Below, in pieces: positions 29,701 to 64,000 of a DNA stretch of 64,000 bases. Source of the DNA: Nectonema munidae (Eukaryota; Nematomorpha; Nectonematoida; Nectonematidae); contig JAUIRK010001040.1 in NCBI GenBank assembly GCA_030549495.1, positions 1,096,625-1,160,624 on the forward strand, given 5' to 3'. The notes under the pieces are model-generated. The model ran no database searches, was not told where the DNA came from, and was given only the letters and a program-made list of their open reading frames with translations. A program made the translations under genes and the position numbers. Numbering within the stretch: position 1 is the stretch's first letter; each line of letters opens with the position of its first letter.

Positions 29701-32582
29701 CGGCTTCGGATCGCAGTATTCCTGAGACCAGAAATTAAGGAATCCCTTATAAATAGATTTTTGTGTTCATCCGCAGTAACTGCTTTAAAATTGCAATTAA
29801 TGGATAAAACCTTTAATGAATGAAAAAAAGAGTCTATAGTTTCCCCGGGTTGTTGGATTCTTGTTGCGAGAAGATGTCTTGCGTGAACTTCGTTGGGTGT
29901 TTTGACATATGCGGTTTCCAGTTGTTCAATAGCCAACTCGTAACTGGTAGCGTCTTGAACAGTCTCTGCAACGTCAGCTCCCAAATGCAGAAGTAATAAT
30001 TCTAGTTTGTTTGGGTTAAGCCCTTCTAAACATTCGAGATAGTAGGCGAAACCTCTAAACCAGTGTTTCCAAAGTTTTCCGCTTTGTTCATCGTCGGTTG
30101 ATATAGTGAATTCCTTAGGTTTGATGATCTTGTCGATAAAAAAATAGTTTATTTGTTGAATAAAATTGTGATGAAAACAAAAGTGAAAAGCTGGAGCTTT
30201 TATTCAACAAAAGAACGTTGTAAGGAAAGTGAATGATATCAAAATAACATGCATATATATACAAGGAAAAATGAATAAAAGTTGCAGAAGAAAGGACGAT
30301 CAGAGTAGTATTTAAATTAAGAATTATAAAAGTTATAACAGAGATAAATAGGGAATATATAACATTCAAATGATAAAATTATAGAAAAGACATGCATTCA
30401 AATAAAGGTAAAAAAGAATCACACAAAGGAATTCCACAATTTGAATATTACAATTATTAAATATGTAATAGAGTATTAAAACGTCACTTTCATGTATTAT
30501 TTTTTATTAAAACTTTTTCGTAAAAGGTCCACATTTAAATGATGGTAAAGTAAGATGTTAATATACTTTAGCGTTTTAAAGAACCCAGCAATATTTTTAG
30601 GTTTTAAAGAACCGAACAATATGCTTTTGTTAATATTTTAAAAAATTAAGTTAAATTTCATTCATTGAAAATTTATTGATTCAGTTTTTTAGCATATGAA
30701 AAAATTATATGCAAATATAATTCTACAAATATAATATTACTTGTAAGAAAGTGTAATTTTAAAACTTATTTTAAAAATAAATACCAGATTCGCGTTTATT
30801 ATACACTTGAAACGATGACTTTAAATCAAAATTTAAAATACGACTTCATCTGCGAAAATTAAAACGAAAAAGAAAAAATGAGCCATTTTCGTGAAAATAG
30901 TAAATTAACCAGCAATGAGCTGATAACTTATACCTGATAATTTTATGCGCTCTTGAAAATTTTGATCTCTGGGCAAGTGTCCTTTTTTAGAATTATTAGC
31001 TTGGAAAATGTTAATTGCACTCAAAACACTTGCAGGATGTGGAGAGTCAAATGCTGAGCAAAAGTACCTCATCACCTTACACGAAATGGAGTCTGGAGCA
31101 AAGTCTTCGCTACATTCAGCGAAAATTTCCGAACGCCTTCCTCTTTGCCATCTCTCCGAATCACTTTACGAGGGATGGAGCTGCGGTGTTCTCAAATTTT
31201 GTGTCATTTGATTGGTCAAGCACTTCTTCCTACAACATCACTCCTGCTTCCTCAAAGCACAAAGAAAGTCAAGCTTGTATGCATTTGTATCACTTGCTCC
31301 AGTCTCTTTCAGCAAAAATTCGCTTTGACCTACTCCAACCACGTCACTTGATATTCATTGGCTTTAGCAAAGGTATGCCTACCCTTTCACTCGTTAAGAG
31401 TTTAATACAATTCTTTTGCTTTACATTAGATGTTGTCTGATTATTCTGGTCGTTAACAGGTTAATCGACAAATTTCTGATCCGCAAGTATCATTTTATGA
31501 GTATCTTTTCTATGCAGCTATTTACAGTGCTGATATCTTGCTCTGAGCGAGACATTTTGAAGTAAAATTTAAAAAGTTGCTAAATAACAAAAATCATGTA
31601 AATGATTTGATAATTAAAAAAATATATAAGCAAAGTTAGAGTCGCATACTCGTAGATAATTTTGGTTTTTTTTTAATTAAAAAATATCTTATTTCAGTTC
31701 AAAAGCTATGCAATTTTAAGTTCGAACAATCTTTTTACTTTTAAACTAAACAGTTACTGCTTTGCAGCAAATATGATCATACGCCCAATTCTTCTAAGGC
31801 AAAAGTAAAAAAAAATGAAAATAAAGAAATCAAATATAAAATTAAAAACGGGTATTACCGTCCATGGTTATAATTGAGAAAATTTAACGAAGAAAAGTTA
31901 ATCCTTGAAGGAAATACTTTTTAGAGGGAGGCACAATTACATAAGATTGCACTTAGCTATGATTAGAATGATAATAAGGATATCAAATCCAAAAGCTTTC
32001 AATTTTTTATTTTTTTAATTGACTATGAGTTAGGTAATAGCAAGCTGAAGCGTAGATAAATTATCTAGTAACCACCTAAATATGGAAAGAAAATTCCAAA
32101 GCCTATGAAAAGTACACACTTTTTTTATTATAGGATGCATGGTTCTTAATGAGATGATTCGCGAATTTTCAAGAAGTATGGACGAGGAAAGCACAACTGG
32201 TGTTGTGATGAACTCTGAAGCAGTGGATCTCGTGGAGCGGATAAAAGAAATGTACTGGCTGGACCCTGGGCACAACGGCCAAAACCACTACTGGCCCACC
32301 GACGCATTCGCCATTCGCACCTTTTTCGCCCTAACGAAAAACGTTTTCGTTGGCATCCATATCACTCCCTATCAAATGTGTCACAAAGGCCCCACATGGC
32401 AAAAGGAAGAATCCAGATTCACCGAAACTCTCACTCAACTTGGCCACTCCTTCCAAAGGCGCTTCCACTTCTTTACCGGCAATGAGGAGGAAAAAGGCGT
32501 AAGAGCTTCATCTCGCTCCGGTCTCTTGTTAAACCACTTTACAGTGATTGAAGCCTTCTCTGATCCATCTCTTGCTTGTTGA
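26572..32582 (+). CDS. C2orf69: C2orf69 family protein (UPF0565), three coding exons, 304 residues
   Basis: Coding segments 26572-26700, 31036-31372 and 32134-32582 join in phases 0 and 1 to give 304 codons plus stop (human protein about 385). Residues 33-43 read KVLLYFGGDLQ, matching the conserved 'VLYFPGDVQ' start. KWSLE and KFPNAFLF follow. GFSKG (152-156) is a G-x-S-x-G nucleophile elbow with Ser154. YWLDPGHNG holds Asp199 and His202, then IHITPYQ, and NHFTVIEAF ends with His290. Ser154/Asp199/His290 is my guess at the triad. Vertebrate C2orf69 is a mitochondrial, esterase/lipase-like protein needed for normal respiration; human loss causes a fatal multisystem disease. The substrate is unknown. 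The N-terminus is short and could be extended by a 5' exon at 26368. Intron 1 (4335 bp) is full of transposon relics on the opposite strand; intron 2 falls inside the GFSKG codons. Confidence 0.9.
28055..28380 (-). pseudogene. Unassigned coding-like relic, antisense in the intron
   Basis: Minus-strand frames read ESKHYKQALKILKRKQQWIK then DFESRYLNYGK (about 28375-28275). After a shift they read YSRRAIEKLSEGRNLESLQK then GGILKYNDFDLYQIKKK (about 28225-28110). The composition is protein-like and the segments are adjacent, suggesting a decayed open reading frame. I cannot name its family; a transposon product is likely given the neighbours. Confidence 0.3.
28960..29323 (-). pseudogene. Tigger/pogo-like transposase relic
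   Basis: The minus-strand frame 29323-29033 contains DFKASNGWLDAFRRQHDL, the end of a CENP-B-type DNA-binding domain, followed by LPKLCSDYDLRDILNMDATR then LFF. This corresponds to the start of the DDE catalytic domain, where the family usually reads 'IFNADETGLFYR'. The usual D-E-T is A-T-R here, following Asp. After a stop and frameshift, LGGGKRSKERITPVLL (about 29000-28970) continues the family order. Both ends and most of the catalytic domain are missing. GC content is higher than its surroundings, suggesting a younger insertion. Confidence 0.82.
29367..30147 (-). pseudogene. Gypsy-type retrotransposon Gag fragment
   Basis: A single open minus-strand frame runs from about 30147 to a stop at 29367. 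It reads KEFTISTDDEQSGKLWKHWF then RGFAYYLECL, then YELAIEQLETAYVKTPNEVH, RIQQPGETIDSFFHSL, FIRDSLISGLRNTAIRSRLL, and ends in two zinc-knuckle-like motifs, CYFCGGKRHCKDQREL and CFKCKKIGHFSKVW. This is the capsid-nucleocapsid layout of gypsy/Ty3 Gag. The first knuckle has an unusual spacing before its last Cys and the second lacks its final Cys. No in-frame ATG was found at the 5' end. Protease, RT and integrase are absent: the frame ends 44 bp from the Tigger relic. Confidence 0.85.
30154..30437 (-). repeat. Putative 5' LTR of the gag element
   Basis: In minus orientation this starts TGTGGAATTCC and ends TTATTCAACA, just before the gag frame, and contains TTGAATAAAAGC, a possible polyadenylation site. 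The TG...CA ends and position fit an LTR, but there is no second LTR to compare and no convincing primer-binding site. Confidence 0.35.
31036..31372 (+). CDS. C2orf69: C2orf69 homologue, coding exon 2
   Basis: Acceptor ACACTTGCAG|GATGTG, phase 0. It encodes DVESQML, KWSLEQSLRYIQRKFPNAFL and IGFSKG up to the first base of the last Gly codon. Donor AAAG|GTATGC, phase 1. GC content is visibly higher than in the intron. Confidence 0.92.
31373..32133 (+). other. C2orf69 intron 2
   Basis: 761 bp, GTATGC...TTATTATAG, AT-rich, no features. It splits the Gly codon that ends GFSKG. Confidence 0.85.
32134..32582 (+). CDS. C2orf69: C2orf69 homologue, last coding exon
   Basis: It begins by completing Gly156 and continues CMVLNEMIREF, parallel to the human 'GCVVLNQLLFEL'. 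It carries EMYWLDPGHNG, GIHITPYQM and LLNHFTVIEAF and stops at TGA 32580-32582. The residues before NHF (EEEKGVRASSRSG) are a lineage-specific loop. Confidence 0.92.
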
Positions 32583-44344: not shown

Positions 44345-44892
44345 TAAATGTGTAAATCGTAAAATGCTTAAAAAATATACTTAAAATAAAAATTTTCAAA
44401 AAATATTTTACATACATATTGAAAGCCACATTTCAAAAATTCTACCTAAAAGTTCAAAAAATTTAACTTTGAAATTGCAGTTTTATTTCATAAAAACTAT
44501 ATGATTGGTTGAAATGTTTATGTAATATATAATAATAATAATAATACTACTACTAATACTACCAATACTACTTTTTGAAAATTTTTACTTGTTTGATTTG
44601 AAGAAAGAATTCAACTGTTTTTCAATATTTCTTTTTCATGATATATATATCATTAGAAAGCTTATCGTTTGCTACATACTCTAGAATAATTTATTTTTGA
44701 AAAAGTTTTAACAAATTTTAATAAATGGACTTTACTTCGAAAAATTTTGTCTAAATTTTTGAAAAAATTACGGACCACCTTTTTGTTTACGCATAATGTG
44801 AAGATTTTTAAAAAAAATTGAATGAAAATGATATCATTGGAAAGGTATACTCTTTGTGGTTAACATAGGCTAGGTTATACAAATAAATATAT
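44345..44892. repeat. 548-bp direct repeat, copy 1
   Basis: It aligns without gaps to 47585-48132 (offset 3240). Only two mismatches were noticed by eye, near 44700 and 44845. It contains an (AAT)n tract at 44529-44545 and an ACT/ATACTACC-type tract after it. It has no coding capacity. Confidence 0.92.
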
Positions 44893-45537
44893 TTTCATTT
44901 TTCCAAAATCTGCTTTTATGTGAGGTCAGTCAAGTTTTATCTAGTTTCAAAAAATACCAATAATAATTAACGTTCTTAATTTATATAATATTTTTTCAAT
45001 ATTTTATATTCACAAAGGTAAAATATGATTTTTTACATTTTAAAATTTCATAGTTGAAGAAAACTGTCGAAAATTAATATATATTTTTTACTTTTTTATG
45101 GGTCAGTAGTACAGGTCAGTATAATGTTTTTCTAATAAATTTAAAATTATTTTTAAAGTGAAAAATGTTGATCGAATGTACAAGATTTGAAGCTATACTC
45201 TTTGTGGGTAAAATAGGCTAGGTTTTACAAATAAATATATTTTTATTTTTCCAAAATCCGCTTTTATGTGAGGTCAGTCAACTTTTATCTAGTTTCAAAA
45301 AATACCAATAATTAACGTGATGAGTTTATATATTATTTCTTCAAAATTTTATATTCACAAAGGCAGAATATGGTTTTTAACATTTTAAAATGTCATAGTT
45401 AAATAAAACTGTCGAAAATTAATATTTATTTTTTACTTTTTATGGGTCAGTAGTATAGGTCAGTATAATATTTTTCTAATAAATTTTAAATTATTTTTCA
45501 AGTGAAAAATGTCGATTAAATGTATGAGTTTTGTTTG
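44846..45537. repeat. Tandem duplication of about 348 bp
   Basis: TATACTCTTTGTGG begins both units (44846 and 45194). Each carries GCTTTTATGTGAGGTCAGTC and GGGTCAGTAGTA. The second copy is diverged by several per cent with small indels. It overlaps the end of the 548-bp repeat. Confidence 0.82.
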
Positions 45538-46035
45538 ATAATCGTAGTTTACTTTTATTTAGTTTAGATACAACCTTTCTAATTTTTAACGAAGGGCATT
45601 CGTTATATTTATACCGACAGTGTGCGAGGAATAAATCACATTATTGATTGATTTTAGAGCATAATTATGCGAAGAAAGATGAACACATGTTGCATTACGC
45701 GTTTGTGAGCGCAGTGAATTCTTATCTCGCATACGCTTCACCACATCTTTAGCACGCGTGTGTGGTTTATTAATGTCGATTGAATGTACGAATTTTGTTT
45801 GATAATCGTAGTCTACTTTTATTTAGTTTAGATACAACCTTTCTAATTTTTAACGAAGGGCATTCGTTATATTTATACCGACAGTGTGCGAATAATAAAT
45901 CACATTATTGATTGATTTTAGAGCATAACTATGCGAAGAAAGATGAACACATGTTGCATTACGCGTTTGTGAGCGCAGTGAATTCTTATCTCGCATACGC
46001 TTCACCACATCTTTAGCACGCGTGTGTGGTTTATT
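45508..46035. repeat. Tandem duplication, 264-bp unit, two copies
   Basis: AATGTCGATT starts both units (45508 and 45772). The copies are nearly identical through ATTTATACCGACAGTGTGCG and TAGCACGCGTGTGTGGTTTA. A partial third start (AATGTAGATCGAATGTACAA) lies at about 46500. GC and CpG content are higher than the surroundings. Confidence 0.9.
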
Positions 46036-47077
46036 TTATCGGGCTAGTGTACGCTAAGTTTATTTGTAGTGTTCCTAGCTTAAATCTTAGTCAAATATTG
46101 AAACGCTTATAACTTTCACATTTCTCAACAAAATGCATCATGCGATATACCAAATTAAAGCATTTTTTATGGGCTTTCAGAATACATTACTTATATCACA
46201 AGTACTTAAGAAATACCATTTTACTGTTTTTATTTTCCATGGGCTTCATACCATTAATTAGCAGATAAGGGATGCATTTTAAACTAAAGCTCCTTTCATT
46301 AGGACAAATTTTTATCTATATTATGTGACAATTTCCAGCACAATTATAAAGCGACTCTACTCTCAGAATCTAAATTTATTTGTAGATTTTTATAAAATAG
46401 TATTAGTTTTTCCATTTTTTTTATAAATTAACCTTCGTTTTTTTTATTGGTCAGTATAATGTTTTTCTAATAAATTTAAAATTATTTTTGAAGTTAAAAA
46501 TGTAGATCGAATGTACAAGTTTTGTTGGATAATCGTAGTCCACTATTTATTTTTAGATTTTTATAAAATCATTTTAGTTTTTGGTTTTTTATAAATTAAC
46601 ATTCGTTTTTTACTTCTTTTGAATAATCATCCAAAATTTAAGTGCGGGTTTGATTTACACTTTGATTCGAAAAAAATATGTTTTGGATAAATATTTTTTT
46701 TATTATTGTTTACTGCATATAAATTTCTAAAGAGAAGATAAATAGATCAAAATATGTGTTTTAATCAATTTTTCTCAATAAGTATTGAAGCTATGAGGTA
46801 GCAAAATATGAACAGAAAGTTTGATATTTTTTGATTTTTTAAAGAATATTTTTCGATTCTTTGATCACAGAATTTTATTTTGATTATTTGACAAATATAA
46901 TATTTAAAATCGTCCAAATTGCAAAGTATAGGTATTTTAAACAAAGCAGTAATATATTTGAAGAAATAATTTTCAGTATAAAGAGTTTAGAAAACTCTTC
47001 TCTAATATGTAATGATATATTCTCATAACCTGTACGGTTGAACGCGGGTAGACAACTTGCGTTTTATCTCCAACCCG
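46036..47077. other. AT-rich, with a partial copy of the inverted-repeat arm
   Basis: 46790-46865 (ATGAGGTAGCAAAATATGAA ... TTTTTCGATTCTTTGAT) and 46890-46935 (AAATCGTCCAAATTGCAAAG) are diverged copies of pieces of the arm at 48133. No gene. Confidence 0.55.
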
Positions 47078-47528
47078 TATATTACGATGATTCTTCTCCA
47101 ACCTGTATTCTACGATGATTCATCTCCAAACTATATACTACAATGATTCATCTCTAACCTGTATACTACGATGATTCATCTCTAACCTGTATACTACGAT
47201 GATTCATCTTCAACCTGTATACTACGATGGTTTCTATTCCATGTACAAATAACTAGGGAGACAATGTTCAACTTTCTGTTCACATTCTGCTAGATGTAAG
47301 ATTTGATATACCTCATTCGGGGAGACGATGCTACATAAGTTATTACCTATATACATTATACCTGTATACTACGATGGTTCATCTCCAACCTGTATACCGC
47401 GATAATTCATATCAAAGAATCGAAAAATATTTTTTAAAAAATAAAAAAATATCAAACTTTCTGTTCATATTTTGCTACCTCATACGATGTTACAAAAGTT
47501 ATTACCTATACTTTGCAATTTGCACGAT
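47078..47528 (+). repeat. 451-bp inverted repeat, left arm
   Basis: It is the reverse complement of 48133-48583, equal in length, with at most a few mismatches seen (one at about 47321). Its outer part (47078-47232) is a 28-bp minisatellite with unit ACGATGATTCATCTCTAACC plus TGTATACT. The spacer to the right arm is 604 bp. Confidence 0.93.
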
Positions 47529-47584: not shown

Positions 47585-48132
47585 TAAATGTGTAAATCGT
47601 AAAATGCTTAAAAAATATACTTAAAATAAAAATTTTCAAAAAATATTTTACATACATATTGAAAGCCACATTTCAAAAATTCTACCTAAAAGTTCAAAAA
47701 ATTTAACTTTGAAATTGCAGTTTTATTTCATAAAAACTATATGATTGGTTGAAATGTTTATGTAATATATAATAATAATAATAATACTACTACTAATACT
47801 ACCAATACTACTTTTTGAAAATTTTTACTTGTTTGATTTGAAGAAAGAATTCAACTGTTTTTCAATATTTCTTTTTCATGATATATATATCATTAGAAAG
47901 CTTATCGTTTGCTACATACTCTAGAATAATTTATTTTTGCAAAAGTTTTAACAAATTTTAATAAATGGACTTTACTTCGAAAAATTTTGTCTAAATTTTT
48001 GAAAAAATTACGGACCACCTTTTTGTTTACGCATAATGTGAAGATTTTTAAAAAAAATTGAATGAAAATGATATCATTGGAAAGATATACTCTTTGTGGT
48101 TAACATAGGCTAGGTTATACAAATAAATATAT
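47585..48132. repeat. 548-bp direct repeat, copy 2, in the loop of the inverted repeat
   Basis: Near-identical to 44345-44892. Its right end touches the right arm exactly (48132/48133), while a 56-base AT-rich bridge separates it from the left arm. Confidence 0.92.
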
Positions 48133-48583
48133 ATCGTGCAAATTGCAAAGTATAGGTAATAACTTTTGTAACATCGTATGAGGTAGCAAAATATGAACAG
48201 AAAGTTTGATATTTTTTTATTTTTTAAAAAATATTTTTCGATTCTTTGATATGAATTATCGCGGTATACAGGTTGGAGATGAACCATCGTAGTATACAGG
48301 TATAATGTATATAGGTAATAACTTATGTAGCATCGTCTCCCCCAATGAGGTATATCAAATCTTACATCTAGCAGAATGTGAACAGAAAGTTGAACATTGT
48401 CTCCCTAGTTATTTGTACATGGAATAGAAACCATCGTAGTATACAGGTTGAAGATGAATCATCGTAGTATACAGGTTAGAGATGAATCATCGTAGTATAC
48501 AGGTTAGAGATGAATCATTGTAGTATATAGTTTGGAGATGAATCATCGTAGAATACAGGTTGGAGAAGAATCATCGTAATATA
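48133..48583 (-). repeat. 451-bp inverted repeat, right arm
   Basis: Complementary to 47078-47528. It starts ATCGTGCAAATTGCAAAG, carries the minisatellite as CATCGTAGTATACAGGTT units (about 48430-48583), and fades into ATATATATATTTATTTATTT. Confidence 0.93.
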
Positions 48584-50150
48584 TATATATTTATTTATTT
48601 ATATGTCATCACGAACCTTTTTTCTTTTACTTTTAGCATTTAAAGTCAAATAACTTTTATAATAAAAAAGTTTTTTCCAAGCTATAAAATGTTCATCCAC
48701 CTCATTTCTGGAGCGCTATCACGTGGTCTAAGTTAAATGACCTGAGAGTGAGTTCATTGACCCGCACTTGAACTATAAATTTTCTCACTTTTTCAATTCC
48801 CGCGAGATGTTTCAAAATTTTTTAAAAAAATTTCAAGTGAGTTAAAGTACTTTTATAAATAAATGATTTTGTAAAAAAAATTTCGAAAAAAAAAATATCA
48901 TTTTTTATAAAAAAAGGTTTGAATTTTCAAAAAGTTGACATATTTGATTCAAAAATTTTACATCAAAAGAAAATTATTTTTTTCTAATTTTTACATCATC
49001 TTATTCAAAATTGCTTAAATTTTATTTTAGAAATTTAAAATTTTGAAAAAAAATTATTTTTGATATATTATTTTTGATTTTAACAAATTTTTTAAAATTT
49101 TTGGGTCAAAAATGACAAATTTTAACTTTCGAACAAAACTTTATGCGAGAAATTTTTTAAAAAATATTTTAAACCATGCCTATCTTAAAGAGCATCCTTT
49201 TACCTATATTTTTGAATTATTTTTGGTTTTGATACAAATTCAAATTTTTTTTTATAAGCCCTTGAACAATATGCACAATTTTGCTATGTTTCACTATATT
49301 TTGGCGTGTAAAATAAAGAATTAAATATTTTTTTACATTTTTTTGCATATTCATAAAATAAACCTATTATTTAAACATACTACGGTGAAAAAATTGGAAA
49401 ATAATTTTTTTAATTTTTTTTTAAAATTGTAAGGGTGACCCATACAAAATTTTTGAAAAATTTCAAACTCATCCAATTTTTAATTTTAATATCTCATTTT
49501 AAAGCAAATTTTATACTGATTACGAAAATGTAAAAATATTTTAAATTAATTTTTTTTTAAATACTTTTTTTAGCCTTTGAACTTGAAAAAATGACAAAAA
49601 TTCCAACTTTGACCTCAAAAAAATTAAAAAATCAATCGATTCATTTCAAACAAATTACATATTCGGAATCAGCGTATCAAACTCTATCAGAATACGTTTT
49701 AAAATTTTTAAATTTTCCATTTTTTTAATTTTCGATTTTTCAGGCCCTTTCAAACGACCTCAAAATTATGACTTCACATATATTCAACAAAAAAGGAAGT
49801 TTTATATATTTTTAGAATCCTCTAATCATTCTAAATAACAATATTAACTTTAATTTATCATAAATGTTTTAATTCAAAAAAATTTCATATATATTTGTAT
49901 ATTTTGTATATACGTATATAATGTACTTAATTTAACCAATCAAAAAAAAACTCATTTTCATTAAAAAAAAATTTCTTTCTCAATATATCCAATTCAATTA
50001 ATGGTTGATGGGTTTATTCATTCTTCTCAAAAACGGTCTTGGCAAAATGAGCTGACAGAAAAGCTTACAAGAAAAACTTTAATAACTTTTAAAATAATCA
50101 ATGAATTGACTTGAAATTTTAAATACTAATAAAACATTATAAAATATATA
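48584..50150. other. Very AT-rich spacer before the satellite
   Basis: No gene. Open frames are composition noise. The last 100 bases (AAAAGCTTACAAGAAAAA ... AAAATATATAATT) are a dispersed repeat, with a relative at 24255-24355. Confidence 0.55.
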
Positions 50151-53100
50151 ATTCCGTATATAGTCTCGGAACAGAATAGGACTATTGCATGACCTGCATG
50201 TCGTAAGAGGCGACTAAAAACATGAAATAATTCCGTATAGTCTCGGAACAGAATAGGACTATTGCATGACCTGCATGTCGTAAGAGGCGACTAAAAACAT
50301 GAAATAATTCCGTATAGTCTCGGAACAGAATAGGACTATTGCATGACCTGCATGTCGTAAGAGGCGACTAAAAACATGAAATAATTCCGTATAGTCTCGG
50401 AACAGAATAGGACTATTGCATGACCTGCATGTCGTAAGAGGCGACTAAAAACATGAAATAATTCCGTATAGTCTCGGAACAGAATAGGACTATTGCATGA
50501 CCTGCATGTCGTAAGAGGCGACTAAAAACAAGAAATAATTCCGTATAGTCTCGGAACAGAATAGGACTATTGCATGACCTGCATGTCGTAAGAGGCGACT
50601 AAAAACATGAAATAATTCCGTATAGTCTCGGAACAGAATAGGACTATTGCATGACCTGCATGTCGTAAGAGGCGACTAAAAACATGAAATAATTCCGTAT
50701 AGTCTCGGAACAGAATAGGACTATTGCATGACCTGCATGTCGTAAGAGGCGACTAAAAACATGAAATAATTCCGTATAGTCTCGGAACAGAATAGGACTA
50801 TTGCATGACCTGCATGTCGTAAGAGGCGACTAAAAACATGAAATAATTCCGTATAGTCTCGGAACAGAATAGGACTATTGCATGACCTGCATGTCGTAAG
50901 AGGCGACTAAAAACATGAAATAATTCCGTATAGTCTCGGAACAGAATAGGACTATTGCATGACCTGCATGTCGTAAGAGGCGACTAAAAACATGAAATAA
51001 TTCCGTATAGTCTCGGAACAGAATAGGACTATTGCATGACCTGCATGTCGTAAGAGGCGACTAAAAACATGAAATAATTCCGTATAGTCTCGGAACAGAA
51101 TAGGACTATTGCATGACCTGCATGTCGTAAGAGGCGACTAAAAACATGAAATAATTCCGTATAGTGTCGGGGAGAGTAGGATTTTGCATGACCTGCATGT
51201 CGTAAGAGGCGACTAAAAACATGAAATAATTCCGTATAGTCTCGGAACAGAATAGGACTATTGCATGACCTGCATGTCGTAAGAGGCGACTAAAAACATG
51301 AAATAATTCCGTATAGTCTCGGAACAGAATAGGACTATTGCATGACCTGCATGTCGTAAGAGGCGACTAAAAACATGAAATAATTCCGTATAGTCTCGGA
51401 ACAGAATAGGACTATTGCATGACATGCATGTCGTAATAGGCGACTAAAAACATGAAATAATTCCGTATAGTCTCGGAACAGAATAGGACTATTGCATGAC
51501 CTGCATGTCGTAAGATGCGACTAAAAACATGAAATAATTCCATATAGTCTCGGAACAGAATAGGACTATTGCATGACCTGCATGTCGTAAGAGGCGACTA
51601 AAAACATGAAATAATTCCGTATAGTCTCGGAACAGAATAGGACTATTGCATGACCTGCATGTCGTAAGAGGCGACTAAAAACATGAAATAATTCCGTATA
51701 GTCTCGGAACAGAATAGGACTATTGCATGACCTGCATGTCGTAAGAGGCGACTAAAAACATGAAATAATTCCGTATAGTCTCGGAACAGAATAGGACTAT
51801 TGCATGACCTGCATGTCGTAAGAGGCGACTAAAAACATGAAATAATTCCGTATAGTCTCGGAACAGAATAGGACTATTGCATGACCTGCATGTCGTAAGA
51901 TGCGACTAAAAACATGAAATAATTCCATATAGTCTCGGAACAGAATAGGACTATTGCATGACCTGCATGTCGTAAGAGGCGACTAAAAACATGAAATAAT
52001 TCCGTATAGTCTCGGAACAGAATAGGACTATTGCATGACCTGCATGTCGTAAGAGGCGACTAAAAACATGAAATAATTCCGTATAGTCTCGGAACAGAAT
52101 AGGACTATTGCATGACCTGCATGTCGTAAGAGGCGACTAAAAACATGAAATAATTCCGTATAGTCTCGGAACAGAATAGGACTATTGCATGACCTGCATG
52201 TCGTAAGAGGCGACTAAAAACATGAAATAATTCCGTATAGTCTCGGAACAGAATAGGACTATTGCATGACCTGCATGTCGTAAGAGGCGACTAAAAACAT
52301 GAAATAATTCCGTATAGTCTCGGAACAGAATAGGACTATTGCATGACCTGCATGTCGTAAGAGGCGACTAAAAACATGAAATAATTCCGTATAGTCTCGG
52401 AACAGAATAGGACTATTGCATGACCTGCATGTCGTAAGAGGCGACTAAAAACATGAAATAATTCCGTATAGTCTCGGAACAGAATAGGACTATTGCATGA
52501 CCTGCATGTCGTAAGAGGCGACTAAAAACAATGAAATAATTCCGTATAGTCTCGGAACAGAATAGGACTATTGCATGACCTGCATGTCGTAAGAGGCGAC
52601 TAAAAACATGAAATAATTCCGTATAGTCTCGGAACAGAATAGGACTATTGCATGACCTGCATGTCGTAAGAGGCGACTAAAAACATGAAATAATTCCGTA
52701 TAGTCTCGGAACAGAATAGGACTATTGCATGACCTGCATGTCGTAAGAGGCGACTAAAAACATGAAATAATTCCGTATAGTCTCGGAACAGAATAGGACT
52801 ATTGCATGACCTGCATGTCGTAAGAGGCGACTAAAAACATGAAATAATTCCGTATAGTCTCGGAACAGAATAGGACTATTGCATGACCTGCATGTCGTAA
52901 GAGGCGACTAAAAACATGAAATAATTCCGTATAGTCTCGGAACAGAATAGGACTATTGCATGACCTGCATGTCGTAAGAGGCGACTAAAAACATGAAATA
53001 ATTCCGTATAGTCTCGGAACAGAATAGGACTATTGCATGACCTGCATGTCGTAAGAGGCGACTAAAAACATGAAATAATTCCGTATAGTCTCGGAACAGA

Positions 53101-56100
53101 ATAGGACTATTGCATGACCTGCATGTCGTAAGAGGCGACTAAAAACATGAAATAATTCCGTATAGTCTCGGAACAGAATAGGACTATTGCATGACCTGCA
53201 TGTCGTAAGAGGCGACTAAAAACATGAAATAATTCCGTATAGTCTCGGAACAGAATAGGACTATTGCATGACCTGCATGTCGTAAGAGGCGACTAAAAAC
53301 ATGAAATAATTCCGTATAGTCTCGGAACAGAATAGGACTATTGCATGACCTGCATGTCGTAAGAGGCGACTAAAAACATGAAATAATTCCGTATAGTCTC
53401 GGAACAGAATAGGACTATTGCATGACCTGCATGTCGTAAGAGGCGACTAAAAACATGAAATAATTCCGTATAGTCTCGGAACAGAATAGGACTATTGCAT
53501 GACCTGCATGTCGTAAGAGGCGACTAAAAACATGAAATAATTCCGTATAGTCTCGGAACAGAATAGGACTATTGCATGACCTGCATGTCGTAAGAGGCGA
53601 CTAAAAACATGAAATAATTCCGTATAGTCTCGGAACAGAATAGGACTATTGCATGACCTGCATGTCGTAAGAGGCGACTAAAAACATGAAATAATTCCGT
53701 ATAGTCTCGGAACAGAATAGGACTATTGCATGACCTGCATGTCGTAAGAGGCGACTAAAAACATGAAATAATTCCGTATAGTCTCGGAACAGAATAGGAC
53801 TATTGCATGACCTGCATGTCGTAAGAGGCGACTAAAAACATGAAATAATTCCGTATAGTCTCGGAACAGAATAGGACTATTGCATGACCTGCATGTCGTA
53901 AGAGGCGACTAAAAACATGAAATAATTCCGTATAGTCTCGGAACAGAATAGGACTATTGCATGACCTGCATGTCGTAAGAGGCGACTAAAAACATGAAAT
54001 AATTCCGTATAGTCTCGGAACAGAATAGGACTATTGCATGACCTGCATGTCGTAAGAGGCGACTAAAAACATGAAATAATTCCGTATAGTCTCGGAACAG
54101 AATAGGACTATTGCATGACCTGCATGTCGTAAGAGGCGACTAAAAACATGAAATAATTCCGTATAGTCTCGGAACAGAATAGGACTATTGCATGACCTGC
54201 ATGTCGTAAGAGGCGACTAAAAACATGAAATAATTCCGTATAGTCTCGGAACAGAATAGGACTATTGCATGACCTGCATGTCGTAAGAGGCGACTAAAAA
54301 CATGAAATAATTCCGTATAGTCTCGGAACAGAATAGGACTATTGCATGACCTGCATGTCGTAAGAGGCGACTAAAAACATGAAATAATTCCGTATAGTCT
54401 CGGAACAGAATAGGACTATTGCATGACCTGCATGTCGTAAGAGGCGACTAAAAACATGAAATAATTCCGTATAGTCTCGGAACAGAATAGGACTATTTCA
54501 TGACCTGCATGTCGTAAGAGGCGACTAAAAACATGAAATAATTCCGTATAGTCTCGGAACAGAATAGGACTATTGCATGACCTGCATGTCGTAAGAGGCG
54601 ACTAAAAACATGAAATAATTCCGTATAGTCTCGGAACAGAATAGGACTATTGCATGACCTGCATGTCGTAAGAGGCGACTAAAAACAAGAAATAATTCCG
54701 TATAGTCTCGGAACAGAATAGGACTATTGCATGACCTGCATGTCGTAAGAGGCGACTAAAAACAAGAAATAATTCCGTATAGTCTCGGAACAGAATAGGA
54801 CTATTGCATGACCTGCATGTCGTAAGAGGCGACTAAAAACATGAAATAATTCCGTATAGTCTCGGAACAGAATAGGACTATTGCATGACCTGCATGTCGT
54901 AAGAGGCGACTAAAAACAAGAAATAATTCCGTATAGTCTCGGAACAGAATAGGACTATTGCATGACCTGCATGTCGTAAGAGGCGACTAAAAACATGAAA
55001 TAATTCCGTATAGTCTCGGAACAGAATAGGACTATTGCATGACCTGCATGTCGTAAGAGGCGACTAAAAACATGAAATAATTCCGTATAGTCTCGGAACA
55101 GAATAGGACTATTGCATGACCTGCATGTCGTAAGAGGCGACTAAAAACATGAAATAATTCCGTATAGTCTCGGAACAGAATAGGACTATTGCATGACCTG
55201 CATGTCGTAAGAGGCGACTAAAAACATGAAATAATTCCGTATAGTCTCGGAACAGAATAGGACTATTGCATGACCTGCATGTCGTAAGAGGCGACTAAAA
55301 ACATGAAATAATTCCGTATAGTCTCGGAACAGAATAGGACTATTGCATGACCTGCATGTCGTAAGAGGCGACTAAAAACATGAAATAATTCCGTATAGTC
55401 TCGGAACAGAATAGGACTATTGCATGACCTGCATGTCGTAAGAGGCGACTAAAAACATGAAATAATTCCGTATAGTCTCGGAACAGAATAGGACTATTGC
55501 ATGACCTGCATGTCGTAAGAGGCGACTAAAAACATGAAATAATTCCGTATAGTCTCGGAACAGAATAGGACTATTGCATGACCTGCATGTCGTAAGAGGC
55601 GACTAAAAACATGAAATAATTCCGTATAGTCTCGGAACAGAATAGGACTATTGCATGACCTGCATGTCGTAAGAGGCGACTAAAAACATGAAATAATTCC
55701 GTATAGTCTCGGAACAGAATAGGACTATTGCATGACCTGCATGTCGTAAGAGGCGACTAAAAACATGAAATAATTCCGTATAGTCTCGGAACAGAATAGG
55801 ACTATTGCATGACCTGCATTTCGTAAGAGGCGACTAAAAACAAGAAATAATTCCGTATAGTCTCGGAACAGAATAGGACTATTGCATGACCTGCATGTCG
55901 TAAGAGGCGACTAAAAACATGAAATAATTCCGTATAGTCTCGGAACAGAATAGGACTATTGCATGACCTGCATGTCGTAAGAGGCGACTAAAAACATGAA
56001 ATAATTCCGTATAGTCTCGGAACAGAATAGGACTATTGCATGACCTGCATGTCGTAAGAGGCGACTAAAAACAATAAATAATTCCGTATAGTCTCGGAAC

Positions 56101-59100
56101 AGAATAGGACTATTGCATGACCTGCATGTCGTAAGAGGCGACTAAAAACATGAAATAATTCCGTATAGTCTCGGAACAGAATAGGACTATTGCATGACCT
56201 GCATGTCGTAAGAGGCGACTAAAAACATGAAATAATTCCGTATAGTCTCGGAACAGAATAGGACTATTGCATGACCTGCATGTCGTAAGAGGCGACTAAA
56301 AACATGAAATAATTCCGTATAGTCTCGGAACAGAATAGGACTATTGCATGACCTGCATGTCGTAAGAGGCGACTAAAAACATGAAATAATTCCGTATAGT
56401 CTCGGAACAGAATAGGACTATTGCATGACCTGCATGTCGTAAGAGGCGACTAAAAACATGAAATAATTCCGTATAGTCTCGGAACAGAATAGGACTATTG
56501 CATGACCTGCATGTCGTAAGAGGCGACTAAAAACATGAAATAATTCCGTATAGTCTCGGAACAGAATAGGACTATTGCATGACCTGCATGTCGTAAGAGG
56601 CGACTAAAAACATTAAATAATTCCGTATAGTCTCGGAACAGAATAGGACTATTGCATGACCTGCATGTCGTAAGAGGCGACTAAAAACATGAAATAATTC
56701 CGTATAGTCTCGGAACAGAATAGGACTATTGCATGACCTGCATGTCGTAAGAGGCGACTAAAAACATGAAATAATTCCGTATATCTCGGAACAGAATAGG
56801 ACTATTGCATGACCTGCATGTCGTAAGAGGCGGCTAAAAACAATAAATAATTCCGTATAGTCTCGGAACAGAATAGGACTATTGCATGACCTGCATGTCG
56901 TAAGAGGCGACTAAAAACATGAAATAATTCCGTATAGTCTCGGAACAGAATAGGACTATTGCATGACCTGCATGTCGTAAGAGGCGACTAAAAACATGAA
57001 ATAATTCCGTATAGTCTCGGAACAGAATAGGACTATTGCATGACCTGCATTTCGTAAGAGGCGACTAAAAACAAGAAATAATTCCGTATAGTCTCGGAAC
57101 AGAATAGGACTATTGCATGACCTGCATGTCGTAAGAGGCGACTAAAAACATGAAATAATTCCGTATAGTCTCGGAACAGAATAGGACTATTGCATGACCT
57201 GCATGTCGTAAGAGGCGACTAAAAACATGAAATAATTCCGTATAGTCTCGGAACAGAATAGGACTATTGCATGACCTGCATGACGTAAGAGGCGACTAAA
57301 AACAATAAATAATTCCGTATAGTCTCGGAACAGAATAGGACTATTGCATGACCTGCATGTCGTAAGAGGCGACTAAAAACATGAAATAATTCCGTTTGTC
57401 TCGGAACAGAATAGGACTATTGCATGACCTGCATGTCGTAAGAGGCGACTAAAAACATGAAATAATTCCGTATAGTCTCGGAACAGAATAGGACTATTGC
57501 ATGACCTGCATGTCGTAAGAGGCGACTAAAAACATGAAATAATTCCGTATAGTCTCGGAACAGAATAGGACTATTGCATGACCTGCATGTCGTAAGAGGC
57601 GACTAAAAACATGAAATAATTCCGTATAGTCTCGGAACAGAATAGGACTATTGCATGACCTGCATGTCGTAAGAGGCGACTAAAACATGAAATAATTCCA
57701 TATTCTCGGAACAGAATAGGACTATTGCATGACCTGCATGTCGTAAGAGGCGACTAAAAACATGAAATAATTCCGTATAGTCTCGGAACAGAATAGGACT
57801 ATTGCATGACCTGCATGTCGTAAGAGGCGACTAAAAACATGAAATAATTCCGTATAGTCTCGGAACAGAATAGGACTATTGCATGACCTGCATGTCGTAA
57901 GAGGCGACTAAAAACATGAAATAATTCCGTATAGTCTCGGAACAGAATAGGACTATTGCATGACCTGCATGTCGTAAGAGGCGACTAAAAACATGAAATA
58001 ATTCCGTATAGTCTCGGAACAGAATAGGACTATTGCATGACCTGCATGTCGTAAGAGGCGACTAAAAACATGAAATAATTCCGTATAGTCTCGGAACAGA
58101 ATAGGACTATTGCATGACCTGCATGTCGTAAGAGGCGACTAAAAACATGAAATAATTCCGTATAGTCTCGGAACAGAATAGGACTATTGCATGACCTGCA
58201 TGTCGTAAGAGGCGACTAAAAACATGAAATAATTCCGTATAGTCTCGGAACAGAATAGGACTATTGCATGACCTGCATGTCGTAAGAGGCGACTAAAAAC
58301 ATGAAATAATTCCGTATAGTCTCGGAACAGAATAGGACTATTGCATGACCTGCATGTCGTAAGAGGCGACTAAAAACATGAAATAATTCCGTATAGTCTC
58401 GGAACAGAATAGGACTATTGCATGACCTGCATGTCGTAAGAGGCGACTAAAAACATGAAATAATTCCGTATAGTCTCGGAACAGAATAGGACTATTGCAT
58501 GACCTGCATGTCGTAAGAGGCGACTAAAAACATGAAATAATTCCGTATAGTCTCGGAACAGAATAGGACTATTGCATGACCTGCATGTCGTAAGAGGCGA
58601 CTAAAAACATGAAATAATTCCGTATAGTCTCGGAACAGAATAGGACTATTGCATGACCTGCATGTCGTAAGAGGCGACTAAAAACATGAAATAATTCCGT
58701 ATAGTCTCGGAACAGAATAGGACTATTGCATGACCTGCATGTCGTAAGAGGCGACTAAAAACATGAAATAATTCCGTATAGTCTCGGAACAGAATAGGAC
58801 TATTGCATGACCTGCATGTCGTAAGAGGCGACTAAAAACATGAAATAATTCCGTATAGTCTCGGAACAGAATAGGACTATTGCATGACCTGCATGTCGTA
58901 AGAGGCGACTAAAAACATGAAATAATTCCGTATAGTCTCGGAACAGAATAGGACTATTGCATGACCTGCATGTCGTAAGAGGCGACTAAAAACATGAAAT
59001 AATTCCGTATAGTCTCGGAACAGAATAGGACTATTGCATGACCTGCATGTCGTAAGAGGCGACTAAAAACAAGAAATAATTCCGTATAGTCTCGGAACAG

Positions 59101-62100
59101 AATAGGACTATTGCATGACCTGCATGTCGTAAGAGGCGACTAAAAACATGAAATAATTCCGTATAGTCTCGGAACAGAATAGGACTATTGCATGACCTGC
59201 ATGTCGTAAGAGGCGACTAAAAACATGAAATAATTCCGTATAGTCTCGGAACAGAATAGGACTATTGCATGACCTGCATGTCGTAAGAGGCGACTAAAAA
59301 CAAGAAATAATTCCGTATAGTCTCGGAACAGAATAGGACTATTGCATGACCTGCATGTCGTAAGAGGCGACTAAAAACATGAAATAATTCCGTATAGTCT
59401 CGGAACAGAATAGGACTATTGCATGACCTGCATGTCGTAAGAGGCGACTAAAAACATGAAATAATTCCGTATAGTCTCGGAACAGAATAGGACTATTGCA
59501 TGACCTGCATGTCGTAAGAGGCGACTAAAAACATGAAATAATTCCGTATAGTCTCGGAACAGAATAGGACTATTGCATGACCTGCATGTCGTAAGAGGCG
59601 ACTAAAAACATGAAATAATTCCGTATAGTCTCGGAACAGAATAGGACTATTGCATGACCTGCATGTCGTAAGAGGCGACTAAAAACATGAAATAATTCCG
59701 TATAGTCTCGGAACAGAATAGGACTATTGCATGACCTGCATGTCGTAAGAGGCGACTAAAAACATGAAATAATTCCGTATAGTCTCGGAACAGAATAGGA
59801 CTATTGCATGACCTGCATGTCGTAAGAGGCGACTAAAAACATGAAATAATTCCGTATAGTCTCGGAACAGAATAGGACTATTGCATGACCTGCATGTCGT
59901 AAGAGGCGACTAAAAACAAGAAATAATTCCGTATAGTCTCGGAACAGAATAGGACTATTGCATGACCTGCATGTCGTAAGAGGCGACTAAAAACATGAAA
60001 TAATTCCGTATAGTCTCGGAACAGAATAGGACTATTGCATGACCTGCATGTCGTAAGAGGCGACTAAAAACATGAAATAATTCCGTATAGTCTCGGAACA
60101 GAATAGGACTATTGCATGACCTGCATGTCGTAAGAGGCGACTAAAAACATGAAATAATTCCGTATAGTCTCGGAACAGAATAGGACTATTGCATGACCTG
60201 CATGTCGTAAGAGGCGACTAAAAACATGAAATAATTCCGTATAGTCTCGGAACAGAATAGGACTATTGCATGACCTGCATGTCGTAAGAGGCGACTAAAA
60301 ACATGAAATAATTCCGTATAGTCTCGGAACAGAATAGGACTATTGCATGACCTGCATGTCGTAAGAGGCGACTAAAAACATGAAATAATTCCGTATAGTC
60401 TCGGAACAGAATAGGACTATTGCATGACCTGCATGTCGTAAGAGGCGACTAAAAACATGAAATAATTCCGTATAGTCTCGGAACAGAATAGGACTATTGC
60501 ATGACCTGCATGTCGTAAGAGGCGACTAAAAACATGAAATAATTCCGTATAGTCTCGGAACAGAATAGGACTATTGCATGACCTGCATGTCGTAAGAGGC
60601 GACTAAAAACATGAAATAATTCCGTATAGTCTCGGAACAGAATAGGACTATTGCATGACCTGCATGTCGTAAGAGGCGACTAAAAACATGAAATAATTCC
60701 GTATCTCGGAACAGAATAGGACTATTGCATGACCTGCATGTCGTAAGAGGCGACTAAAAACATGAAATAATTCCGTATAGTCTCGGAACAGAATAGGACT
60801 ATTGCATGACCTGCATGTCGTAAGAGGCGACTAAAAACATGAAATAATTCCGTATAGTCTCGGAACAGAATAGGACTATTGCATGACCTGCATGTCGTAA
60901 GAGGCGACTAAAAACATGAAATAATTCCGTATAGTCTCGGAACAGAATAGGACTATTGCATGACCTGCATGTCGTAAGAGGCGACTAAAAACATGAAATA
61001 ATTCCGTATAGTCTCGGAACAGAATAGGACTATTGCATGACCTGCATGTCGTAAGAGGCGACTAAAAACAAGAAATAATTCCATATAGTCTCGGAACAGA
61101 ATAGGATTACGGCATGACCTGCATGTCGTAAGAGGCGACTAAAAACATGAAATAATTCCGTATAGTCTCGGAACAGAATAGGACTATTGCATGACCTGCA
61201 TGTCGTAAGAGGCGACTAAAAACATGAAATAATTCCGTATCTCGGAACAGAATAGGACTATTGCATGACCTGCATGTCGTAAGAGGCGGCTAAAAACAAT
61301 AAATAATTCCGTATAGTCTCGGAACAGAATAGGACTATTGCATGACCTGCATTTCGTAAGAGGCGACTAAAAACATGAAATAATTCCGTATAGTCTCGGA
61401 ACAGAATAGGACTATTGCATGACCTGCATGTCGTAAGAGGCGACTAAAAACATGAAATAATTCCGTATAGTCTCGGAACAGAATAGGACTATTGCATGAC
61501 CTGCATGTCGTAAGAGGCGACTAAAAACATGAAATAATTCCGTATAGTCTCGGAACAGAATAGGACTATTGCATGACCTGCATGTCGTAAGAGGCGACTA
61601 AAAACATGAAATAATTCCGTATAGTCTCGGAACAGAATAGGACTATTGCATGACCTGCATGTCGTAAGATGCGACTAAAAACATGAAATAATTCCATATA
61701 GTCTCGGAACAGAATAGGACTATTGCATGACCTGCATGTCGTAAGAGGCGACTAAAAACATGAAATAATTCCGTATAGTCTCGGAACAGAATAGGACTAT
61801 TGCATGACCTGCATGTCGTAAGAGGCGACTAAAAACATGAAATAATTCCGTATAGTCTCGGAACAGAATAGGACTATTGCATGACCTGCATGTCGTAAGA
61901 GGCGACTAAAAACATGAAATAATTCCGTATAGTCTCGGAACAGAATAGGACTATTGCATGACCTGCATGTCGTAAGAGGCGACTAAAAACATGAAATAAT
62001 TCCGTATAGTCTCGGAACAGAATAGGACTATTGCATGACCTGCATGTCGTAAGAGGCGACTAAAAACATGAAATAATTCCGTATAGTCTCGGAACAGAAT

Positions 62101-64000
62101 AGGACTATTGCATGACCTGCATGTCGTAAGAGGCGACTAAAAACATGAAATAATTCCGTATAGTCTCGGAACAGAATAGGACTATTGCATGACCTGCATG
62201 TCGTAAGAGGCGACTAAAAACATGAAATAATTCCGTATAGTCTCGGAACAGAATAGGACTATTGCATGACCTGCATGTCGTAAGAGGCGACTAAAAACAT
62301 GAAATAATTCCGTATAGTCTCGGAACAGAATAGGACTATTGCATGACCTGCATGTCGTAAGAGGCGACTAAAAACATGAAATAATTCCGTATAGTCTCGG
62401 AACAGAATAGGACTATTGCATGACCTGCATGTCGTAAGAGGCGACTAAAAACATGAAATAATTCCGTATAGTCTCGGAACAGAATAGGACTATTGCATGA
62501 CCTGCATGTCGTAAGAGGCGACTAAAAACATGAAATAATTCCGTATAGTCTCGGAACAGAATAGGACTATTGCATGACCTGCATGTCGTAAGAGGCGACT
62601 AAAAACATGAAATAATTCCGTATAGTCTCGGAACAGAATAGGACTATTGCATGACCTGCATGTCGTAAGAGGCGACTAAAAACATGAAATAATTCCGTAT
62701 AGTCTCGGAACAGAATAGGACTATTGCATGACCTGCATGTCGTAAGAGGCGACTAAAAACATGAAATAATTCCGTATAGTCTCGGAACAGAATAGGACTA
62801 TTGCATGACCTGCATGTCGTAAGAGGCGACTAAAAACATGAAATAATTCCGTATAGTCTCGGAACAGAATAGGACTATTGCATGACCTGCATGTCGTAAG
62901 AGGCGACTAAAAACATGAAATAATTCCGTATAGTCTCGGAACAGAATAGGACTATTGCATGACCTGCATGTCGTAAGAGGCGACTAAAAACATGAAATAA
63001 TTCCGTATAGTCTCGGAACAGAATAGGACTATTGCATGACCTGCATGTCGTAAGAGGCGACTAAAAACATGAAATAATTCCGTATAGTCTCGGAACAGAA
63101 TAGGACTATTGCATGACCTGCATGTCGTAAGAGGCGACTAAAAACATGAAATAATTCCGTATAGTCTCGGAACAGAATAGGACTATTGCATGACCTGCAT
63201 GTCGTAAGAGGCGACTAAAAACATGAAATAATTCCGTATAGTCTCGGAACAGAATAGGACTATTGCATGACCTGCATGTCGTAAGAGGCGACTAAAAACA
63301 TGAAATAATTCCGTATAGTCTCGGAACAGAATAGGACTATTGCATGACCTGCATGTCGTAAGAGGCGACTAAAAACATGAAATAATTCCGTATAGTCTCG
63401 GAACAGAATAGGACTATTGCATGACCTGCATGTCGTAAGAGGCGACTAAAAACAAGAAATAATTCCGTATAGTCTCGGAACAGAATAGGACTATTGCATG
63501 ACCTGCATGTCGTAAGAGGCGACTAAAAACATGAAATAATTCCGTATAGTCTCGGAACAGAATAGGACTATTGCATGACCTGCATGTCGTAAGAGGCGAC
63601 TAAAAACATGAAATAATTCCGTATAGTCTCGGAACAGAATAGGACTATTGCATGACCTGCATGTCGTAAGAGGCGACTAAAAACAAGAAATAATTCCGTA
63701 TAGTCTCGGAACAGAATAGGACTATTGCATGACCTGCATGTCGTAAGAGGCGACTAAAAACATGAAATAATTCCGTATAGTCTCGGAACAGAATAGGACT
63801 ATTGCATGACCTGCATGTCGTAAGAGGCGACTAAAAACATAAAATAATTCCGAATAGTCTCGGAACAGAATAGGACTATTGCATGACCTGCATGTCGTAA
63901 GAGGCGACTAAAAACATGAAATAATTCCGTATAGTCTCGGAACAGAATAGGACTATTGCATGACCTGCATGTCGTAAGAGGCGACTAAAAACATGAAATA
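50151..64000. repeat. 77-bp tandem satellite, about 180 monomers, runs off the window
   Basis: The unit reads ATTCCGTATAGTCTCGGAAC, AGAATAGGACTATTGCATGA, CCTGCATGTCGTAAGAGGCG, ACTAAAAACATGAAATA, 77 bases. It repeats head to tail with no spacers from 50151 (first unit 79 bp with a TA insertion) to 64000. Most monomers are identical; a minority carry point changes (ACATG to ACAAG in ACATGAAAT is commonest) or 1-4 base deletions around TATAGTC (for example near 56782, 57396, 57702, 60704 and 61241). One strongly changed unit is at about 51164-51185. GC content is near 40%, above the host background. Each unit has stops in every frame or shifts frame (77 is not a multiple of 3), so it is non-coding. 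Such homogeneity suggests recent or ongoing homogenisation, as in centromeric or heterochromatic satellites. Confidence 0.98.

Follow-up and report, generated by a model that had tools for sequence, protein, structure and literature searches.

We analysed a 64,000-nucleotide stretch (the window) at the end of a contig of the nematomorph Nectonema munidae (GenBank assembly GCA_030549495.1, contig JAUIRK010001040.1, positions 1,096,625 to 1,160,624 of the forward strand; C728 below), following up an earlier note that had drawn attention to a 77-base-pair (bp) tandem repeat at its right edge. In our judgement, with a probability of roughly 0.8, the repeat is a satellite of recent date, and 66 of the 77 bases of its unit make up one copy of a short non-coding module that retroelements in the same genome carry, Penelope-like elements among them. 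The unit is homologous to the dispersed copies of this module, a single-copy intermediate stands on another contig (C168), and arrays of the unit stand at many loci, with block duplication and shared array flanks; the direction, from element to satellite, we infer.

The satellite unit and its dispersed relatives

The array occupies positions 50148 to 64000 of the window on the plus strand, where Tandem Repeats Finder (TRF) reports a period of 77, 180.0 copies and 99% matches, and where a parse into units yields 180 head-to-tail units, 170 of them exactly 77 bp long. Consensus and unit are identical in 143 of the 180, there are 24 distinct types, and mean divergence is 0.48%; forming long head-to-tail arrays of near-identical, non-coding units, the repeat is satellite DNA. 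An 18-bp core pattern that tolerates as many as 3 mismatches is found 180 times where 0.08 would be expected, which rules out chance for the array. No spacer or insert was found between 50148 and 64000, and the right edge of the window is the end of the contig (1,160,624 bp), so that the array is cut by the contig end and its 13.85 kb is a minimum length. Variant types 5 and 6 stand next to each other, in that order, at three places, which points to duplication in blocks larger than one unit.

The module was recognised in the array with a model, R1, built from 16 dispersed, non-satellite rows, with no satellite units and with the four base pairs of one hairpin, P2, as its only pairs; its source copies include stretches 3' of coding frames in two dispersed families, A and D, as well as composite elements. 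Across the window, R1 matches at 180 places with E ≤0.01, every one between 50150 and 63988, on the plus strand and of full model length (E 1.6e-12 to 9.7e-17); positions 1-50149 have no match at that threshold. For instance, in a typical monomer of the consensus type (50304..50380, plus strand, by the unit parse) the module fills 50306..50371 (plus strand, 64 bits, E 9.7e-17), the full model length. In 26 other loci, relatives or neighbours not all of which were expected to match, R1 finds 47 matches in 21 loci, 26 of the 47 lying in an array on contig C600; L041, L049, L050, L064 and L095 have none. Aligned directly with single dispersed copies, the satellite agrees at 59 of 68 bases with that on C168, at 60 of 66 with that on C735 and at 56 of 62 with family D, with scores of 81, 73 and 65 compared to maxima of 25, 26 and 24 among shuffles in two-base blocks. 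These comparisons show the unit to be homologous to dispersed transposable-element copies in the same genome. On C168 (L051) a single satellite-like module is followed by a second domain, the one that also lies downstream of the module in a further family, B. Module and second domain stand in this order on C735, C717 and C100 too, and what the satellite unit corresponds to is thus the front half of a dispersed, composite element. Element and satellite are linked by this single copy on C168 and by the diverged 74-bp array on C600.

A search of the whole assembly (211,562,693 bases in 748 contigs) found the exact 42-bp core of the satellite 2,579 times (968 forward, 1,611 reverse; 0 for the backward-read control), which at 77 bp each comes to about 0.2 Mb, or 0.09% of the assembly, a lower bound if arrays have been collapsed. 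Confinement of the monomer to a single locus, which the earlier note had named as speaking against its reading, is therefore not what the genome holds. We mapped the 77-bp unit on seven contigs, C728 together with C17, C80, C391, C563, C586 and C607; on the latter six, local matches to the unit average 99.3-99.9% per array, with the exception of one 29-base match at 93%. Pattern matches, with short stretches read, place the unit also on C78, C79, C119, C600 and C671. Units of 76-77 bp are mixed with units of 82-84 bp on C78, and C600 has more diverged 74-bp units with a different linker (25 units in the stretch read, with matches to 164.5 kb). C391 has an inverted junction near 498.35 kb; in the stretches of this contig that were read, which lie outside 478.3-495.0 kb, the array is seen at 478.0-478.3 kb and is absent at 470.0-470.3 kb.

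Four contigs end inside arrays (C17, C391, C586 and C728). Flanks of several kb are common to C17, C80, C563 and C607, most of their length being 94-98% alike and a few pieces 90-93%, and C17, C80 and C607 have the same array edge; two haplotypes would not account for so many copies, so whole blocks seem to have been duplicated. The lack of spacers and inserted elements described earlier holds for C728 and fails for the arrays on C17 and C586, both of which are split by a related 2.7-kb segment (89.5% alike). These segments (L010, C17:15365-18064; L014, C586:5666-8338) are made of inner repeats of roughly 500 bp. The earlier note was right about some 180 head-to-tail units with few differences, and placed the start of the array, at 50151, three bases to the right of the true one. 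Its proposal of recent expansion or strong homogenisation is borne out by the near-identity within the array, the duplication of variant blocks and the presence of the same unit on six more contigs.

Retroelements that carry the module

With the main satellite excluded, the P2 hairpin pattern occurs at 15 places against 0 for the control, 10 of them dispersed and 5 in arrays (three on C80, one on C78 and one on C600), and the surroundings of these places reveal a satellite core common to other repeats. Three patterns that run from the motif AGAATAG to P2 found 19, 7 and 31 places, with 0 in each control; going by the sequence, the dispersed ones among them number 13, 1 and 31. We took the surroundings of 20 of the last 31, and 15 of the 31 have one identical 42-base core, which is the core of family D. 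The dispersed modules are diverse: three types of outer P2 pair occur, AGAATAG is separated from P2 by 18-24 bases, and the flanks differ.

In family A the module lies downstream of a reverse transcriptase piece (L030, RVT_1 at 2.1e-9), at a distance of roughly 150-320 bp from the last piece of frame, and in another copy (L033) a GIY-YIG-like frame is found upstream of it (PF01541, E 0.049, below the curated cut-off). Family D has an open frame whose end is GIY-YIG-like, then a stop and, about 90 bp on, AGAATAG; here PF01541 matches L074 at E 0.016 and L071 at E 0.057, both below the curated cut-off, and does not match L072, and the remaining family A and D frames scanned have no match to it. 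The reverse transcriptase result concerns family A only, and the family D stretches taken do not cover that region. Reversed partial copies flank some family D insertions (e.g. L068:157-363 and L073:469-573). The layout of the two families is that of Penelope-like elements, and on the basis of RVT_1, this motif order and the inverted partial copies we class families A and D as Penelope-like. A short interspersed element (SINE) reading of family A was dropped once the reverse transcriptase and GIY-YIG-like frames appeared upstream.

Family B (C641 and C501; L042-L048) carries the module too. An open frame of 506 residues that encodes a ubiquitin carboxyl-terminal hydrolase domain (PF00443, 2.5e-13) lies upstream of a family B module at L049:368-1888 (C641:717767-719287), and the downstream part of the module linked to this locus is found in seven copies (94-100%) on C641. 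Elsewhere, both arms of a fold-back repeat on C385 (L032:1271-1653) bear the module, in opposite orientation, and a short TTAGGG-like run lies just 3' of the module in L077 (C381). Near the 3' end of family D one sees by eye a hammerhead-like core, CTGAAGA..GAAA, round a short stem (L068, L069, L070, L071, L073 and L074; the first letters vary); the Rfam matches at E ≤5 for six family D and three family A loci include no hammerhead.

Folds of the module and of the second domain

The satellite unit contains two short perfect dyads, a putative hairpin P1 (TTCCG-8-CGGAA, at 50308..50325 of the plus strand in the monomer given above, a pattern present 169 times in the array) and the hairpin P2 (GTCG-7-CGAC, at 50354..50368 of the plus strand), whose outer pair changes type in dispersed copies. 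The first base of the P2 stem is other than G in 52 matches: 34 with C, 4 dispersed with T, 2 with A, and 12 satellite units. Those beginning with C end with G in 31 cases, with A in 2 and with C in 1; among the four dispersed copies with T, two end with A, one with G (a wobble pair) and the fourth is unread; both copies with A end with G. A standard pair is thereby kept in 34 of the 39 dispersed copies read (31 C-G, 2 U-A and 1 U.G), a count confined to copies whose first base is not G and in which 15 of the 31 C-G copies, sharing the identical family D core, are not independent, so that the events are few. With the G-C copies included, there are three types of outer pair. Additionally, 48 of 53 distinct modules classed as dispersed pair at P2, whereas 20,000 shuffles average 26.5 and reach 39 at most, in a set that may include some satellite variants and that has many rows from pair-fixing patterns. 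The rows of three alignments (A1, A3 and A4) were chosen by patterns that fix a large part of the core (and both P2 forms for A3) and are biased, and the case for P2 rests on the counts of changed first bases. In the satellite P1 is perfect, and certain copies have it re-paired, for instance that on C228 when compared with other family A members. The outer bases of P2 differ among copies and yet still pair, and for this reason we take the role of the module in the elements to be, most likely, that of a folded RNA signal.

The second domain, of about 97 bp, has at least 115 matches (40 of 230 candidates scored). Its copies form series about 147 bp apart on C570, C38, C127, C18 and C376, and TRF gives periods of 147 and 148 on two such stretches (L056 on C570 and L058 on C376). 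A sister satellite with a unit of about 147 bp, bearing a five-helix domain, is thus seen in L056, L057 (C38) and L058; on C398 the series are about 675 bp apart (165-166 kb and 193-195 kb). The domain is predicted to form five nested helices, in which 97.2% of cells pair over 18 rows, compared to 29-52% for controls in which the fold was slid along. Both-side changes number 13 cells against 3.3 in shuffles, none of 500 shuffles reaches 13, and these changes are confined to three of the five helices. RNAalifold predicts 21 of 22 pairs from the alignment, and as the structure was drawn from the same related 18 rows, this support is strong and not independent. Rfam has no match for the sister-satellite domain at its gathering score, and we regard module and second domain as candidate new RNA families.

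A different account of the pairing is that the module is maintained as a DNA site, such as a dyad to which a protein binds, the pair changes then marking an inverted DNA site and not an RNA helix. The short perfect dyads of the unit suit this account; the nested, RNA-like fold just described, with its excess of both-side changes, argues against it, as evidence from the adjoining domain and not from the module itself, and we consider a DNA site rather unlikely. A coding function of the core was rejected, as the spacers between the two conserved blocks differ among copies (19, 20 and 21). So was a known ribozyme or hammerhead in the unit: Rfam finds no family in the whole window at gathering scores and nothing in 50140-51000 at E 5. 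In the dispersed loci Rfam gives only matches below gathering scores with unrelated names (microRNA, small nucleolar RNA and others), one weak match (L061:3-96, E 0.15) partly overlapping a module. A viral or phage source was also discarded: an 18-mer has two matches in the same context in viral contigs, a longer pattern has none there, and phages have none.

Taking the folded RNA signal further, the unit could be an undescribed signal near the 3' ends of several unrelated retroelements of this animal, Penelope-like ones included, possibly old and widespread in animals, with one composite element having given rise to the 77-bp satellite from its first half and to the 147-bp satellite from its second. 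We put this forward tentatively, with the odds somewhat against it. Similar pieces may be present in moth and mollusc repeats.

Origin of the satellite and the sequence beside it

In the origin that we favour, a module from the 3' region of an element would have been duplicated in tandem, the first tandem duplication perhaps arising through an aberrant Penelope-type insertion or through unequal exchange. Later growth of the arrays may have proceeded by unequal exchange or rolling-circle amplification, and the present arrays would be essentially passive, with a structural role. Penelope-like elements are reported (PMC11167929) as occurring in tandem or partial tandem, with reverse transcription starting inside their RNA, and by analogy such tandem insertion would be a possible route to short tandem copies.

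Several points weigh against this origin. The same paper, PMC11167929, places the RNA piece needed for insertion in the first 172 nucleotides of the reading frame and not in the 3' region, which speaks against a direct carry-over to the module. As to the elements themselves, the GIY-YIG matches in families A and D are below the Pfam cut-off (E 0.049, 0.016 and 0.057), a protein search with the reverse transcriptase piece found no relative among 105 candidates, the best match to a solved structure is weak (E 0.0046), and a Penelope-like nature is established neither for family B nor for the composite copies. One composite copy (L064, C342:257 kb) has a decayed module, missed by R1. Pairing at P1 over 21 rows is not significant (78, where single-base shuffles average 69 and reach 92), for which reason a generic P1 stem-loop common to all copies was rejected, and a single monomer folds with an energy no better than that of shuffles (z -0.43). 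In the satellites of the loci read, the outer P2 pair is changed in five distinct modules, to G.U in one and to unpaired bases in four, which gives no sign that the arrays need the fold.

Selection on the array itself would offer another account, in which the array, of whatever origin, is a functional centromere or a different kind of chromosome structure under selection. The length and homogeneity of the arrays, their presence on many contigs and the breaks of several at contig ends fit such a role, as does the inverted junction on C391. The CENP-B box has 0 matches on either strand of the array, though many centromeres are without one; the assembly holds only the 0.2 Mb noted above, subject to the same lower bound, and a second, sister satellite of 147 bp exists. 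A selected role of this kind seems to us unlikely; for the heterochromatic or sex-linked character that the earlier note also considered, the sequences give no sign in either direction. The satellite might instead have come first, with retroelements taking up one unit in their 3' region, and it is indeed far commoner (2,579 cores) than the dispersed copies counted (31, and 13 of 19 places). The dispersed modules, however, are much more diverse than the satellite of the window (0.48%), and in two families their place is 3' of the coding frames; we find this order of events quite improbable. An assembly artefact, in which arrays were made too long or a single array was placed on more than one contig, would explain why four contigs end inside arrays and is very improbable indeed, given the arrays on C80, C563 and C607 that have non-array sequence on both sides within the contig and the array-specific variants (the 74-mers of C600 and the 82-84-mers of C78).

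Satellites derived from the 3' untranslated or 3' end regions of retrotransposons are known already: PMC9659126 gives PisTR-A from Ogre, the common cetacean satellite from LINE-1, HinfI from CR1, and 18HT from HeT-A/TART. The satellite favoured here resembles these in that a 3' piece of a retroelement is amplified in tandem, and differs in that its likely source includes Penelope-like elements and its piece is a short conserved module of several unlike elements. Term searches find "Penelope" 0 times in the searchable text of PMC9659126 and PMC12628747. Compared with the Penelope-like elements with tandem pseudo-LTRs (long terminal repeats) and hammerhead ribozymes of PMC11167929, those found here have the reverse transcriptase, a putative GIY-YIG-like domain and inverted partial copies in common, and the CTGAAGA..GAAA core that the eye picks out in the 3' part of family D may be a further likeness; the module itself is not a hammerhead, none being among the Rfam matches for the array and the dispersed loci scanned. 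A satellite unit bearing a structured RNA is also found in pDo500 of Dolichopoda (PMC2837043), whereas here there is no known ribozyme and no compensatory pairing inside the arrays. A short domain common to different retroelements recalls the SINE superfamilies with conserved central domains (MetaSINE and others, PMC8010984). Literature text searches for a 17-mer and four 14-base strings found none, short strings occurring, among the papers listed, in ones off topic by their titles; and among the papers listed on the topic, judged by title and beginning of abstract and with most subscription papers outside the search, there is none on a satellite from a Penelope-like element. Both the Penelope source and the module thus seem to be new in the searchable literature.

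The origin of satellites is a long-standing question, and likely parents, a single-copy intermediate and arrays together in one genome make a useful case. The amplified piece would be a conserved module spanning nearly the whole unit, and not a random stretch, with a sister satellite from the adjoining domain. If the module is a binding site of an element protein, the link between retrotransposition and the birth of a satellite is directly testable; and thousands of tandem copies of an RNA signal, if that is what they are, could act as decoys, as sources of PIWI-interacting RNAs or as landing sites for the element protein.

Within the array, the most divergent unit (75 bp, 7 differences by the unit parse) is at 51151..51225 on the plus strand. 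The AT-rich left edge of the array, at 50088..50147, has no match at E 1e-20 in the flanks taken from the other six mapped contigs. Further left, window positions 29383-30456 match C80 at 98.0% identity over a stretch that, in C80, overlaps an open gag-pol frame of 1,178 residues, so at least one neighbour of the array is young, and the description of the array as lying beside old transposon relics is only partly right. A gag-like piece of an LTR retrotransposon is found at 29367-30203, and the gag-pol frame of C80 at L018:5984-9517. The window has 8 open frames of at least 120 residues, 3 with Pfam matches (one RVT_1 and two C2orf69); the latter two frames, at 31015-31440 and 32109-32582, match different parts of C2orf69 (PF10561) and are probably exons of a host gene. 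Left of the array are also recent local duplications (44345-44892 and 47585-48132, 99.6% alike), a 264-bp tandem pair (45508-46035) and two 28-bp minisatellites in opposite orientation (47066-47229 and 48432-48583). On another contig, C107, a COX1 frame (L095), read with table 5, contains six TGA codons and is fast-evolving, being 45-52% identical to the best 120 of 7,998 proteins, which are from arthropods as far as their names tell.

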